DNA of 42,637 nucleotides from a virus. The position numbers and the translations under genes are program-made. Numbering within the stretch: the first letter of the stretch is position 1; each line of letters begins with the position of its first letter. This document shows, piece after piece, positions 3,888 to 9,162 of the stretch. The notes below the pieces were generated by a model. It saw only the letters and a program-made list of their open reading frames with translations. It was not told where the DNA came from and ran no database searches. The stretch covers positions 1 to 42,637 of the IMG/VR virus record IMGVR_UViG_3300032241_002354; one strand, written 5' to 3'.

Positions 3888-3929
3888 CCCGCCATGCCTC
3901 TCAACGATGCACACTTTGGCGGGTTTTTT
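3888..3929 (+). terminator. intrinsic terminator of gp32
   Basis: CCCGCCA at 3888-3894 pairs perfectly with TGGCGGG at 3917-3923, loop 22 bases, followed by six T (3924-3929). It lies 24 bases after the gp32 stop and its T-tract overlaps the stop codon of the convergent minus-strand gene. On the minus strand the stem is not followed by a T-tract, so it should act in the plus direction only. Confidence 0.82.
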
Positions 3930-5697
3930 ATACCGGTCTTGCATTTTTAACATCAACAGTATATTTTGTTGGGTCATCTATACGAACTTCAACACTTCCT
4001 TCAGAAACCATAGAATCTCCACTTGCAGTAGCAACATTAATTTTTTTAGAATTATTAATTACTGTTTGTTTTATACCTGAATAAATTTCTTCCGTTTTCA
4101 TTTTTAAATTTTCACCAACAGATTTGGCCAATTTTTCATCTAAAGAAGGAATTTCTCTTGCCATTTCACTAACCTTACTTTTTGCTTTTTCATAAATGGG
4201 TTTTGCAGTTTCTTCAACTTTTCCACCCATTGATTTAACAAAATTTGACATTTGTTGTACATGAGGATCCTGCTCAATTTTAGATAGCATAGATTCATTA
4301 TCATCTTCTTCTTCTACTTCTGCTTGTGCAACTTCTTTTGTGGGGACTTTTTCAGGCTTTGCAGTTTGTGGTTTAGATTCGGTTGTTGGATGGTCAATGA
4401 GGTAGTCAATCGCTTTTGTTGCAATTTGATTACCTACCTTTTCACCTATAACAGAACCTCCTATTAAACCAGCAGTTCCACCAATAAGTGTACCTGCACC
4501 AGGAAATATAAATGTACCAATTGTTGCTCCAAGTTCACCAAGAACAATTCCTCCTGCAGCACTAGTTAATATTGGAGTAACTGTTGAAATAACTTGTTTT
4601 TTTAATTCTGATTCACTTTCTATTTCTCCATTTTGATATTGTTCCACTAAATTATAAATTGCTGCAGCTACTCCTGCCGCTGCGGTAATTCCTCCTAAGA
4701 TTTTGGCCATTCTTAATGCACCTTTAGCTGTCTTAGAATCTACTCTTGTTTTTCTTTCTTTTTCTTCAATCTTTGAAGCTTTTCCATTTTTCTTTTTTTC
4801 TTCTTCTTTTTTTGTAGTAGACTTATCTTTTTTATTATCTTTGCCTTTATGTTCTTCAATTTTTTCAGGAACCATTTTTGTTTTTGATTTAGGGCTCGAA
4901 AGTAATTTTTTACCTATAGAAGCGGCTAAACCGACACCAGCAATTTTTTTAGCTAAACTTAATAAATGTCCACCAACCTCTTTAATTGCTTCCCAAATAT
5001 TATCAATCGTATTGGTGATAAATCGACTTAAATCTTTTAATGCATCCATTAACATTGTAAACCAAGAAGGACCATTATCCTCTGTATTTTCTTTTTTTAT
5101 TATTGTTGCTGTTTTTTTATTTTTTAAAGCTTCTAATAATTCTTTATGGAAAGATTCTGCTTCTTTTTCTTTTTCTTCAGCAAAATCTCTTTCCAATTCA
5201 CTATTTCTTTTATCTAATTCTTTTTGACCTTTAACTAGATTGTATAGACGAGCCAATATGTCAGCAACACCATCACCTTTCAACATTCTTTTTTGTTGAC
5301 CATCTGCTATTGTTGTATATAATGCAGTATCAATTTGACCAACTTTTTTACCACCATTAAATAAGAAAGAATCTACTGGAGATTTCTTTTTCTTAGCAGA
5401 TTTTTTATCTGAAATTTGAGATTCTTGCTGACCTATTTCTTCAGCTTTTTGTAACATAATTTCACCAACACCACCGGATAATAATTTGGCAATTTTCATA
5501 GAATCAAATTTTGCCGTCATATTAACCGCATCTTTTTCAAAATTATTTGAGAACGCACCACTACCCGTCATTTCAATTAATTTTTTATTTGTATCAATAA
5601 CTTTTCTGAAATTGGAAATATCACCTGCTGTATAGGTACTTCTTTCAATTCCGCTAGAGATGCTTGGATCGTTTTTAAGTTTTATTTGTTTTTCCAT
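3928..5697 (-). CDS. tape-measure/baseplate-hub-like structural protein (589 aa), paralogue of the next gene upstream
   Basis: Likely tail-interior or hub protein; no clear family name. Seen: an N-terminal module (about residues 45-191) shared with the neighbour at 5699-7288, centred on KKVGQIDTALYTTI (117-130), followed by a charged coiled coil (155-192); hydrophobic stretches at about 243-262 and 331-350; a Lys/Glu-rich linker (265-320); and a long glycine-zipper-like hydrophobic stretch (377-425: TSAAGGIVLGELG, IFPGAGTLIGGTAGLIGG) that looks membrane-active; then an acidic tail. 589 residues is close to the T4 tape measure gp29 (590), and the gene follows gp54, gp26 and the chaperone-like frame, the place expected for a tape measure. 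A pore-forming ejection protein is the alternative. Last gene of the minus operon. Confidence 0.6.
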   Translation of the reverse strand: MEKQIKLKNDPSISSGIERSTYTAGDISNFRKVIDTNKKLIEMTGSGAFSNNFEKDAVNMTAKFDSMKIAKLLSGGVGEIMLQKAEEIGQQESQISDKKSAKKKKSPVDSFLFNGGKKVGQIDTALYTTIADGQQKRMLKGDGVADILARLYNLVKGQKELDKRNSELERDFAEEKEKEAESFHKELLEALKNKKTATIIKKENTEDNGPSWFTMLMDALKDLSRFITNTIDNIWEAIKEVGGHLLSLAKKIAGVGLAASIGKKLLSSPKSKTKMVPEKIEEHKGKDNKKDKSTTKKEEEKKKNGKASKIEEKERKTRVDSKTAKGALRMAKILGGITAAAGVAAAIYNLVEQYQNGEIESESELKKQVISTVTPILTSAAGGIVLGELGATIGTFIFPGAGTLIGGTAGLIGGSVIGEKVGNQIATKAIDYLIDHPTTESKPQTAKPEKVPTKEVAQAEVEEEDDNESMLSKIEQDPHVQQMSNFVKSMGGKVEETAKPIYEKAKSKVSEMAREIPSLDEKLAKSVGENLKMKTEEIYSGIKQTVINNSKKINVATASGDSMVSEGSVEVRIDDPTKYTVDVKNARPV

Positions 5698-5698
5698 T

Positions 5699-7288
5699 TT
5701 AATTCATTTGTACAAGTGCTGGATTAATAGGATTATCCCTTGAACTATTATTACTTAGTATTTTTTGGTCTTTTTTACCACTTGCAGTAATAATTGTTTG
5801 ACTATTATCAATTGCTATTGAATTTCCACCAACTGATTTTTTATATTCTTGGTTAACATCAGATGATTTATAAATTCTACTACCAATATCATTACCTTGA
5901 TTATCAACACTTGCATAAGCGGTTTTACTTGCAGTTTCACCTAACGCTTTTGCAAATTGTTGTTGTTTTGGTACAATTTTATTATATAATAATTCTTTTA
6001 CTTCACCAACGGTTCTTGGTTGTTCCAAATCAGGAACCATTTTTCCTGCAACATTATGCAGTTTATAAAAAATATATTTGTTGTAATCAGCTGCTTGTTG
6101 TCCTGCAACTTGGTAAGCCAAAGCATTATCAGGAGCTTTTAAAAACTTTTTAGCACCACCTGGTCCTAAAAAATTCGATGTGTATACGTTTGTAGGTGTT
6201 GGCGGTATACCAGCTGCAGATAATTGTCTGGCACCATCTTTAATTAAGATTGCACCCATAATTGCGTTTGCTTCAGCATCTTTTGGTCCTCTATCTAATA
6301 GAGGAATGTATTGCTTGTATTCTGGATAATTTGTATTAATTAAATTTTCCATTCCATTCCATGTTTTATCTATGAATTGGAAAAGACCTTTTGCGCTACC
6401 CTGACTAGCTCCTACTTCGGCATTAAATCCACTTTCTTGTGCCGCAATTGCATACATTAAACCTCTATCAATACCAATTGCCGATGAAGCATTTTCTAAT
6501 GCAGTAGAAACATCTTCCGATTCTTCTTTACTTTTACCATACAGTCCTTCAATTGTAGTAGAACCAGCAGCAATTTTTGCAACACTAGCCAGTTTACTAG
6601 GTTTTACTTTTTCTCTAGGTATTTTACTTTTGGTTGCAGAAGGTTTAACTCTTTCAGGAATTTTTTCTTTAACGGGTTTTGGTTTTTTGGTTGAAGTAGA
6701 AGGTTCTTTAGTTACAGTAGGTTTTTCTTTTTCTACTCTTGGTCGTGTTGGAATTTTTTCTTTTGGTATTTCTGGAATTTTAGGAGTTTTAAATTCTTCT
6801 TTTTTAGGAACTTTTTTAAAAGGTTTTGTTAAATCTTTTAATTTTTTAGTATTAGTTTTAGTTCCATGTTCATCTTCTTTTAAGACATCAATTAATTCTT
6901 GATTTCTCTTTTCTTCTTCTTTTAATTTTTCTTGTTGAAAATCACGGCGTAATTCATCCTGACGTTTTTGGTCGTCAATAATAGATTTATACAGATTTAA
7001 TAATTTTGAAGCCACTAATGCAACCCCATCATCTTTTCTTAATTTTTGTGGCATACCTTCGTTGATAGTTGTATAAAAAGCTGTATCAATTTTACCAACT
7101 TTTCTACCAGAACCAGGTGTTGTATCGCTTGCTGTTTTTTGTTCAGCAATCGTATCATTCTTTTTTAATGTGGGAGTGCGACTGAGCAAAGCATCACCAA
7201 TTTTACCAATAAATGATTTAGCAATCATCAACGGGTCAAATTTTTTAACTAATCCTTGTGATGTTCTTTCTAATGCTTCTGATTGCAT
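5699..7288 (-). CDS. structural protein with lytic transglycosylase (SLT) domain (529 aa)
   Basis: Probable virion-associated muralytic protein. Seen: N-terminal module (about 14-136) paralogous to the downstream protein, with RKVGKIDTAFYTTI at 62-75 and a charged coiled coil; a Lys/Pro-rich extended linker (about 140-235, repeated KP, KIP and PTR units); a transglycosylase domain (about 265-400) with the catalytic Glu E285 in AIAAQESGFNA, the GLFQF motif (301-305) and a C-terminal AYQVAGQQAADYNKYI helix typical of Slt70/gp-type domains. The start ATG overlaps the stop of the gp26 frameshift frame (TAATG). It probably opens the peptidoglycan during tail penetration, filling the role of the lysozyme domain missing from the gp5 equivalent. 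Whether it is the tape measure or a hub protein cannot be told from sequence. Confidence 0.8.
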   Translation of the reverse strand: MQSEALERTSQGLVKKFDPLMIAKSFIGKIGDALLSRTPTLKKNDTIAEQKTASDTTPGSGRKVGKIDTAFYTTINEGMPQKLRKDDGVALVASKLLNLYKSIIDDQKRQDELRRDFQQEKLKEEEKRNQELIDVLKEDEHGTKTNTKKLKDLTKPFKKVPKKEEFKTPKIPEIPKEKIPTRPRVEKEKPTVTKEPSTSTKKPKPVKEKIPERVKPSATKSKIPREKVKPSKLASVAKIAAGSTTIEGLYGKSKEESEDVSTALENASSAIGIDRGLMYAIAAQESGFNAEVGASQGSAKGLFQFIDKTWNGMENLINTNYPEYKQYIPLLDRGPKDAEANAIMGAILIKDGARQLSAAGIPPTPTNVYTSNFLGPGGAKKFLKAPDNALAYQVAGQQAADYNKYIFYKLHNVAGKMVPDLEQPRTVGEVKELLYNKIVPKQQQFAKALGETASKTAYASVDNQGNDIGSRIYKSSDVNQEYKKSVGGNSIAIDNSQTIITASGKKDQKILSNNSSRDNPINPALVQMN

Positions 7289-7482
7289 TATTTACCTTGT
7301 CTTTGCTTAATTTTTTCGTTTTCTTCTTCAATGTATTGTATAAGCATAGCAACATAGATATCACGTTCCCAAGGTATCATGTTATCAAGTTCAGTCAAAC
7401 TATATTTGTGGTGCTGCATCAATGAAAAGTTTGTTCTGTAATAATTTGTTAAATTGTCATGACGAAATGTTAGCCGAAAAAA
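7288..7482 (-). CDS. -1 frameshift extension of gp26 (tail-assembly-chaperone-like)
   Basis: A reading frame, -1 relative to gp26, runs from the slippery site at 7482-7476 to TAA at 7290-7288 and reads through segments FRLTFRHDNLTNYYRTNFSL, MQHHKYSLTELDNMIPWERD and IYVAMLIQYIEEENEK. It has no ATG before residue M (7419) and no ribosome binding site there, yet it is clearly protein-like (amphipathic, the MIPWERD pattern). The zero frame reads AGT TTT TTC GGC TAA, so T_TTT_TTC precedes the gp26 stop by only 3 bases. A -1 shift gives gp26 plus about 62 residues. Placement before the tape-measure-like genes parallels the G/GT tail-chaperone frameshift of other tailed phages. A separate 43-aa protein from ATG 7419 (gp51-like position) is the alternative. 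Confidence 0.68.
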   Translation of the reverse strand, partial: FFRLTFRHDNLTNYYRTNFSLMQHHKYSLTELDNMIPWERDIYVAMLIQYIEEENEKIKQRQGK

Positions 7483-8210
7483 CTTTCTAGGCCTTCCACA
7501 TCAATTGTATGATGAAACCCACATTTACTACAATCTAATTCAATAGTCTTGTTTAGTGTTGGTAGGTTATTAAAAAAATCTTCAATCAGAGCAAACTGTT
7601 CTTGGTTTAATGATTCAACAAACTCAATCAATTCTTGTTGAGGAGTTTCTTTTGCATAATAATATTGTTCACCGTCAAAAATATATTCTATACTATCTAC
7701 AACCATATTAAAAGCTAAATCTGTCGCTGTTTCTAATCTACTTGCTTTTTCAACAATAGAAAATTGTGGATATCTTAATTTCATACTAAGATTTGAATTT
7801 AATTGTACAACATCTTTAACCTTTTCATCTTTGTTAACTTTTATGTCTAACAAATTAATTGATGTTTTCATAACATTGTTACAAGGAGTAGGATTTGGTT
7901 TGTCAGGATTTTGTACAAGATTTTCACAACGATATCTAGTATCAATTGTTTCGCCAACTGACCTTGCTCTTAATTGAAGAAAATAATATTCAACATCAAT
8001 AATAGGAAGTTCATCAATGACAATATCCGACAATGTACAATTATGTAAAACTTGTTTAATATTTTTTTCAATAGTTTCTTTATCATCAGATTCCATTGCC
8101 ATCATTAAATTACGTTGTTCTTTTACAAGAAACGGTCTAAAACGAATATTTTTCTTTGATAACGGTAAATCTATATCATAAACCGGCGTATCAATTTTAG
8201 GTAAAGCCAT
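7470..8210 (-). CDS. 26: baseplate hub subunit / chaperone gp26-like
   Basis: Member of the T4 gp26 family needed for baseplate hub assembly. Seen: N-terminal PKIDTPVYDIDLPLSKKNIRFRPF and LVKEQRNLMMAMES, typical of the family; two Cys pairs, C95/C110 and C227/C230 (DCSKCGFHH), consistent with a zinc ribbon; C-terminal half with LIEFVESLNQEQFALIEDFF, also typical. 246 residues compared with about 208 in T4. Good ribosome binding site AGGAG on the minus strand. It lies between gp54 and the tape-measure-like genes, and its 3' end carries the slippery heptamer described separately, so it may make two products, as tail assembly chaperones do. Confidence 0.85.
   Translation of the reverse strand: MALPKIDTPVYDIDLPLSKKNIRFRPFLVKEQRNLMMAMESDDKETIEKNIKQVLHNCTLSDIVIDELPIIDVEYYFLQLRARSVGETIDTRYRCENLVQNPDKPNPTPCNNVMKTSINLLDIKVNKDEKVKDVVQLNSNLSMKLRYPQFSIVEKASRLETATDLAFNMVVDSIEYIFDGEQYYYAKETPQQELIEFVESLNQEQFALIEDFFNNLPTLNKTIELDCSKCGFHHTIDVEGLESFFG
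7476..7482 (-). promoter_or_regulatory. candidate -1 ribosomal frameshift site T_TTT_TTC
   Basis: On the minus strand the heptamer TTTTTTC fits the X_XXY_YYZ pattern in the gp26 frame (codons TTT TTC). Both tRNAs can re-pair in the -1 frame (TTT TTT). The zero-frame stop follows after one codon (GGC TAA), and the -1 frame stays open to 7288. No stimulatory stem was resolved by eye. Confidence 0.62.
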
Positions 8211-8235: not shown

Positions 8236-9162
8236 TTATTCTGGATAATATGCTTCATTACCCGTATCTTCTTCAACTGCATCAAAATCCCCAGAAGGTA
8301 TATCAGTATTTTGTGATGCCCCATCTATTGCTGGTGTGGAAGATAGTCCACCTTCACTATCTGTTACTAATGTAGAACCATCATCAAAAGTCTGTATTGA
8401 AGAACCATCATCAAGCTTTTGTACACCAAAATTACTTTCGTTACCAATATTAATACCTCCACCACCACCTACACCACTATATCCTCTATTCTGAGCATTA
8501 GGATTAAGACTATTTATTGTGCTAAATGGATTGTATGGATCTGGTCCGTCATTACCATCTAATGAACCTAATCCACCTAAACCTCCAACAACAGAAGCGA
8601 TTGCACTTGACAATAAACTTGCACCCAATGCTTGTATCGAATTATTAACCCAATAACTATAGGCAAATACAACAGTTAATTTATGATGTCCTTCAGTAGA
8701 CCAATCTAAATCTAATTGATTAACTGCAACAGGAAAAGCGTCAATTAAATTGATAGAATATGTTAATGTATTAGTAGCGTCATATTGATTAACTAATATG
8801 CTCGAAACATAATCTTGCTTATATCTAAAATTAAATGAGTATGTTGGATTAATATATTCCATCCATGTGTCAAAGAATGTTTTTTCCGACATATCTTCAG
8901 ATACAATAAATGTCATAGAAATATCATTATAACTTGCTATGTAAGGAAATTTTTGTGAAGGATTTGAACCAACTTTTCTTTCAGCTGTTGCAAATGTTCT
9001 ACTTGGTAATTCAGTAGTTTCACAACGTAAAGACAATTGTGAACTAATACCTCTATAAGGTATTAATGTAAGTGGTACAGGAATACTTACATCAAACCTA
9101 CTAGGTCTTGCTATACCCCCGTTGTTAAAACTGGCTTTAAAATCAGATATACTACCTGGCAT
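8236..9162 (-). CDS. 54: baseplate tail-tube initiator gp54-like
   Basis: Tail-tube family (T4_gp19-like) protein that would start tail-tube polymerisation on the baseplate. Seen: N-terminal PGSISDFKASFNNGGIARPSRFDVSIPVP, SLRCETTELPSRTFATAERKV, IVSEDMSEKTFFDTWMEYI and YKQDYVSSILVNQYD, the usual tube-domain blocks; VVFAYSYWV closes the domain near residue 180. 308 residues against 320 in T4 gp54. The C-terminal 120 residues are Gly/Ser/Asp-rich and low in complexity (VGGGGGINIGN, DDGSSIQTFDDGSTL), not part of the tube fold. The partner gp48 is encoded divergently at 10238. Confidence 0.82.
   Translation of the reverse strand: MPGSISDFKASFNNGGIARPSRFDVSIPVPLTLIPYRGISSQLSLRCETTELPSRTFATAERKVGSNPSQKFPYIASYNDISMTFIVSEDMSEKTFFDTWMEYINPTYSFNFRYKQDYVSSILVNQYDATNTLTYSINLIDAFPVAVNQLDLDWSTEGHHKLTVVFAYSYWVNNSIQALGASLLSSAIASVVGGLGGLGSLDGNDGPDPYNPFSTINSLNPNAQNRGYSGVGGGGGINIGNESNFGVQKLDDGSSIQTFDDGSTLVTDSEGGLSSTPAIDGASQNTDIPSGDFDAVEEDTGNEAYYPE

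Follow-up and report, generated by a model that had tools for sequence, protein, structure and literature searches.

The lambda-type G/GT tail assembly chaperone frameshift was reportedly set out by Xu, Hendrix and Duda in 2004. From one gene it yields a short protein and, through slippage at a conserved site close to the 3' end, a -1 extended form; the site is placed between the tube gene and the large tail genes, and the extension has no start of its own. The G/GT frameshift is covered in the review of Atkins et al. 2016, where T4 is named as the exception (PMC5009743). The gene 26 locus of the window, as the whole analyzed stretch of 42,637 nucleotides of viral DNA is termed here, shares these G/GT features, with the two forms as predicted products. 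As judged from its sequence, the window very probably encodes both gp26 and a gp26-51 fusion, made by a -1 frameshift like that of lambda G and GT. The locus differs from lambda G/GT in that its protein belongs to the PF12322 family, in which no sequence relationship to the known families of tail chaperones is detectable, and in that the slippery site of its group is T_TTT_TTN. In one T4-related clade, a pair of genes replaces the shift. No description of a gp26/gp51 frameshift was found in the searchable literature; subscription papers lie outside that search and priority is uncertain.

The minus-strand gene at 8210-7470 is a homologue of T4 gp26 in profile searches (PF12322, 3e-59; phrog_150, 4e-65) with its own Shine-Dalgarno sequence, AAGGAG, upstream. 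The locus is arranged as follows.

8236-9162, minus strand: tail tube / gp54-like protein, upstream gene (PF06841, 1e-6; phrog_45 tail tube, 3e-38)
7470-8210, minus strand: gp26 homologue, the short form, a 0-frame product of 246 aa (PF12322, phrog_150)
7492-7497, minus strand: GGAAGG, a Shine-Dalgarno-like element ending 9 nt 5' of the heptamer (direct reading)
7476-7482, minus strand: slippery heptamer T_TTT_TTC in the 0-frame register X_XXY_YYZ (direct reading, conservation)
7470-7472, minus strand: 0-frame stop TAA, one codon past the heptamer (direct reading)
7288-7482, minus strand: -1 extension, the gp51 C-terminal domain (phrog_634, alignment with T4-type gp51)
5699-7288, minus strand: next gene, SLT transglycosylase-domain protein of 529 aa (PF01464, 3.8e-6)
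3928-5697, minus strand: tail protein of 589 aa (weak match to phrog_794 tail length tape measure, 3e-8)

Direct reading of the 3' end of gene 26 on the minus strand (...GTG GAA GGC CTA GAA AGT TTT TTC GGC TAA) confirms the ending T_TTT_TTC GGC TAA claimed in an earlier note on this DNA and places the heptamer at 7482-7476 in a phase that fits a -1 tandem slip. The -1 frame past the heptamer has 62 open codons, matching the figure of about 62 in that note, and reads FFRLTFRHDNLTNYYRTNFSLMQHHKYSLTELDNMIPWERDIYVAMLIQYIEEENEKIKQRQGK up to a stop at 7290-7288, which, as also claimed, lies within a TAATG where it is overlapped by the ATG of the 529-aa gene. The predicted gp26-51 fusion is 307 aa in length. 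An open frame of 62 codons has a chance probability of about 0.01 at the window base composition, and thus the open frame alone is weak evidence. The earliest starts in this frame are TTG 7422 and ATG 7419, and no Shine-Dalgarno sequence for either was found in the window, so the statement that neither a start nor a Shine-Dalgarno sequence precedes Met 7419 holds except for the TTG just before it. A scan of 28 window genes identified only two in-frame slippery heptamers near a stop, the gene 26 site included, and this site is the only one of the T6 type. A further in-frame T_TTT_TTT occurs at 7572-7578 on the minus strand (codon 212 of gp26), where a -1 slip meets a TAA immediately and a truncated gp26 would result.

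In the proposed mechanism the majority of ribosomes translating gene 26 would terminate at the TAA to give gp26, and a minority would slip by -1 on T_TTT_TTC and enter the gp51 frame to give the gp26-51 fusion. The short and long forms would serve as hub and tail-tube assembly chaperones in the manner of lambda gpG and gpGT, with the shared domain holding the tape-measure or hub protein and the extension recruiting the tube. T4 and its closest relatives would obtain the two forms from the paralogous genes 26 (short) and 51 (long), without any need for slippage. We infer the in vivo slippage, its rate and the chaperone mechanism.

The start-less frame, described in the earlier note as protein-like, is homologous to gp51, with a match of the extension to phrog_634 'baseplate hub assembly catalyst' (3e-30, profile search) and a second match to the final part of phrog_150, and it aligns with the in-frame C terminus of T4-type gp51. 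The frame indeed has no nearby start in the window, with the refinement that it belongs to a known gene, gp51, whose limits have been drawn wrongly. The T4 gp26/gp51 family profiles cover the whole protein (PF12322, 3e-59; phrog_150, 4e-65; phrog_634, 3e-30), and in Pfam only PF12322 reaches the cut-off for gp26 and no family reaches it for the extension. The extension is found by tblastn in 581 phage records, mainly of marine cyanophages and Vibrio phages, whose annotations either omit gp51 or list it as a short gene of its own, with a start that varies between records, and the joined gp26-gp51 gene is absent from every phage record opened. Loci with gp51 free-standing, with an arbitrary start or unannotated include L083, L084, L088, L082, L093, L090 and L198. 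The free-standing annotation in about 580 records looks like a widespread gene-call error, and the present reading would correct gene calls in hundreds of records and give gp51 a concrete, testable role as the long, GT-like form.

A chaperone-like function is suggested because of the gene order, the two-form logic and the T4 review, where gp26 and gp51 both figure as chaperones of hub assembly (PMC3004832). It is nonetheless conceivable, if rather unlikely, that the frameshift is real and that gp26 and gp26-51 act otherwise in hub assembly and not as tape-measure chaperones. In favor of this, the tape measure of the window phage is identified without certainty, with two large tail genes downstream of the extension (window 3928-7288, minus strand) having only weak tape-measure similarity; the next gene, with the SLT domain, is a plausible tape measure. 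The AlphaFold2 models of gp26 (pLDDT 91.6) and T4-type gp51 (pLDDT 93.1, with the extension predicted as three helices) gave nothing significant in PDB fold searches. The likeliest structures for gp26 were the HK97 tail chaperone 2ob9 (0.33) and 3fgx (0.38), at E about 4, so that the comparison with the HK97 chaperone also falls below significance, and a kinship of gp26 to known tail chaperones is no more than a lead. Against a different role in the hub are the order of tube, short form, extension and large tail gene, the assignment of both proteins in the T4 review, and the fact that some annotators call gp26 and gp51 tape measure chaperones.

Profiles of the two halves, gp26 and gp51, gathered 174 loci with the window included, and in all of them (174/174) gp51 lies in the -1 frame of gp26 with the junction T6 in slippery register. 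The T6 heptamer is present in 55/55 clusters at 70% identity and 13/13 at 50%, and the 0-frame stop is placed one codon after the heptamer in related loci, or directly after it (zero codons) in four. Because the first query included the junction, a second and independent set was tested, composed of genome contigs picked solely on two gp26 N-terminal motifs distant from the junction. Two loci that end before the junction or are masked were left out, and all 46 evaluable loci (46/46) have the in-phase T6 and gp51 in the -1 frame. When very divergent gp26 sets were scanned by alignment, no usable motif emerged, and scans with the Vibrio nt-1 and ACP17 proteins gave near copies only.

The last base of the heptamer varies between C, T, A and G (encoding Phe or Leu), and the residue preceding it is Ser, Asn, Asp or Ala (Phe in one case), with the last base of that codon being T in all. 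Of the 56 Phe-Phe pairs at other places in these genes, one is encoded by T_TTT_TTT and none by T_TTT_TTC (Fisher 3e-31); as read from these sequences, the constraint at the heptamer is on nucleotides and not on protein only. In an ungapped alignment of 52 representatives, over the stretch ahead of the first start codon of the window, the variability peak occupies frame 0 third positions before the heptamer and frame -1 third positions after it (p 5e-5). This switch in codon variability ahead of any window start argues that the conserved block FFRLTFRHDNLxNYYxTNF, which stands upstream of the first start, is translated in frame -1. The central proposal of the earlier note, a programmed -1 frameshift fusing gp26 to the start-less frame, is thus supported by the conserved heptamer and -1 frame, and the comparison of homologues that it called for finds both conserved, with most homologues having no separate start. 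The sequence comparisons strongly support a frameshift reading that would be general across the T4 superfamily outside the T4-type clade.

Separate translation of gp51, whether through termination-reinitiation or at a weak internal start, with the T6 run incidental, is improbable. Annotators do call a separate gene, and TAATG is present at the junction in Vibrio nt-1 and K566. However, in most clusters, window included, no start codon occurs in the 24 nt that follow the heptamer, the conserved block comes before the first start, T4-type gp51 equals the full fusion, and the constraint at the nucleotide level would be left unexplained. In about 12/55 clusters a start codon does fall inside those 24 nt, and there coupled restart could contribute. 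A TAATG without the heptamer, a further point in favor of separate translation, is found in the Ackermannviridae-like Vibrio phages 1.244 and D506 and in the single-copy exception, Pseudomonas phage Cygsa01. In these three gp51 follows gp26 in the -1 frame as in the window, with a TAATG start instead of the heptamer, and gp51 is probably a coupled separate gene. Bakedbeans, a relative of these phages, keeps the heptamer and has no ATG at the junction. The earlier note took homologues with a separate start to count against the frameshift; since the TAATG group lacks the heptamer it represents an alternative solution, leaving the case of the window unaffected and not refuted. In these loci (L249, L250 and L195) coupled translation has possibly replaced frameshifting.

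The sequence GGAAGG or GGAGGG occurs 8-10 nt upstream of the heptamer in most loci; as evidence of a stimulator it was rejected, its frequency being no higher than conserved Glu-Gly codons force, which makes it compatible with such a role and no more. In marine cyanophages a stem-loop starts roughly 5-9 nt downstream of the slippery site, with a mean z of -3.41 against synonymous-codon shuffles (19/20 below -1.64; control region -0.94) and covariation in a 53-sequence alignment (8 double-changed cells compared with 2.1 in shuffles). The marine cyanophage stem-loops (L106-L185) lie within the first 60 nt after the heptamer. A strong downstream stem-loop is also present in L061, and L018 has a stable fold that does not go beyond codon control (z -0.8). 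No local downstream stem was detected in the window (z +1.3), and it is missing in most near relatives too; a T_TTT_TTC site without a stem-loop may suffice for the level of shift needed in the window.

Transcriptional slippage on the T run, giving mixed mRNA and from it the fusion, is very unlikely. The run is present in all loci and extends to 8 T in a few relatives, but most loci have six T followed by C, which is short for polymerase slippage, and the constant phase and the downstream stem-loop of one clade are in line with slippage by the ribosome. Sequencing error or decay of a fused gene could account for any one genome taken singly, through an indel of one base, but is ruled out by conservation: all 174 + 46 contigs, with 16 reference phages among them, are broken at one and the same codon. 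Two odd-frame contigs, L175, which was excluded, and L178, resemble sequence errors or decay. The extension of L178 carries an in-frame TAG in the gp51 part (FALM*YHKYS), attributable to sequence error, decay or suppression.

The proteins of T4 correspond to the two predicted products of the window. T4 gp26 (208 aa) covers phrog_150 to position 235, the shift point, and ends ...GLKEFFELL, and T4 gp51 (249 aa) covers phrog_150 to position 280 and matches phrog_634 as well. The two are directly homologous (E 2e-6), and this comparison makes them paralogues, of which gp51 carries the extension in frame. T4 and the window are alike and homologous over the whole length, gp26 being equivalent to the 0-frame product and gp51 to the extended product, whereas in T4 genes 26 and 51 are divergently transcribed neighbors and have no slippery site. 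No heptamer was found in T4-type gp26 genes, where the codons are TTC TTT or others. In the T4-type context given in the earlier note, the two paralogous genes of T4 conceal the G/GT parallel.

When PF12322 copies were counted in 23 whole records, 6/6 T4-type genomes (T4, RZ, CF1, avDM3, Riv-10 and Stupor) had two and the other 17 genomes had one; 16/17 of the latter have the heptamer, illustrating a near-complete mutual exclusion of the heptamer and the second gene. In an unrooted tree of the shared domain, with poorly supported deep branches, T4-type gp26 and gp51 each form one group adjoining the frameshifting genes, and the direction of change is one that we infer. It is likely that a single frameshifting gene is ancestral in the T4 superfamily and that T4 genes 26 and 51 are its duplicated and split version, with the slippery site having been erased in the short copy and the extension fused in frame in the long copy. 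If true, T4 fits the G/GT rule, with duplication in place of recoding, and the Campylobacter phages possibly do likewise. PF12322 occurs twice in Campylobacter phage CJLB-13 (Eucampyvirinae), as a short copy and as a copy that has the extension in frame; unlike those of T4 the copies are on one strand and about 9 kb apart, and this two-copy state (L247, L251 and L252) is possibly an independent split. The frameshift reading would place the T4 superfamily under the G/GT rule and provides a series from nature where one stoichiometry problem is answered by recoding, by gene duplication and perhaps by coupled translation. Apart from the tail genes, the window contains an accessory gene for a 2OG-Fe(II) oxygenase at 1209-1793 on the plus strand (PF13640, 2e-15).
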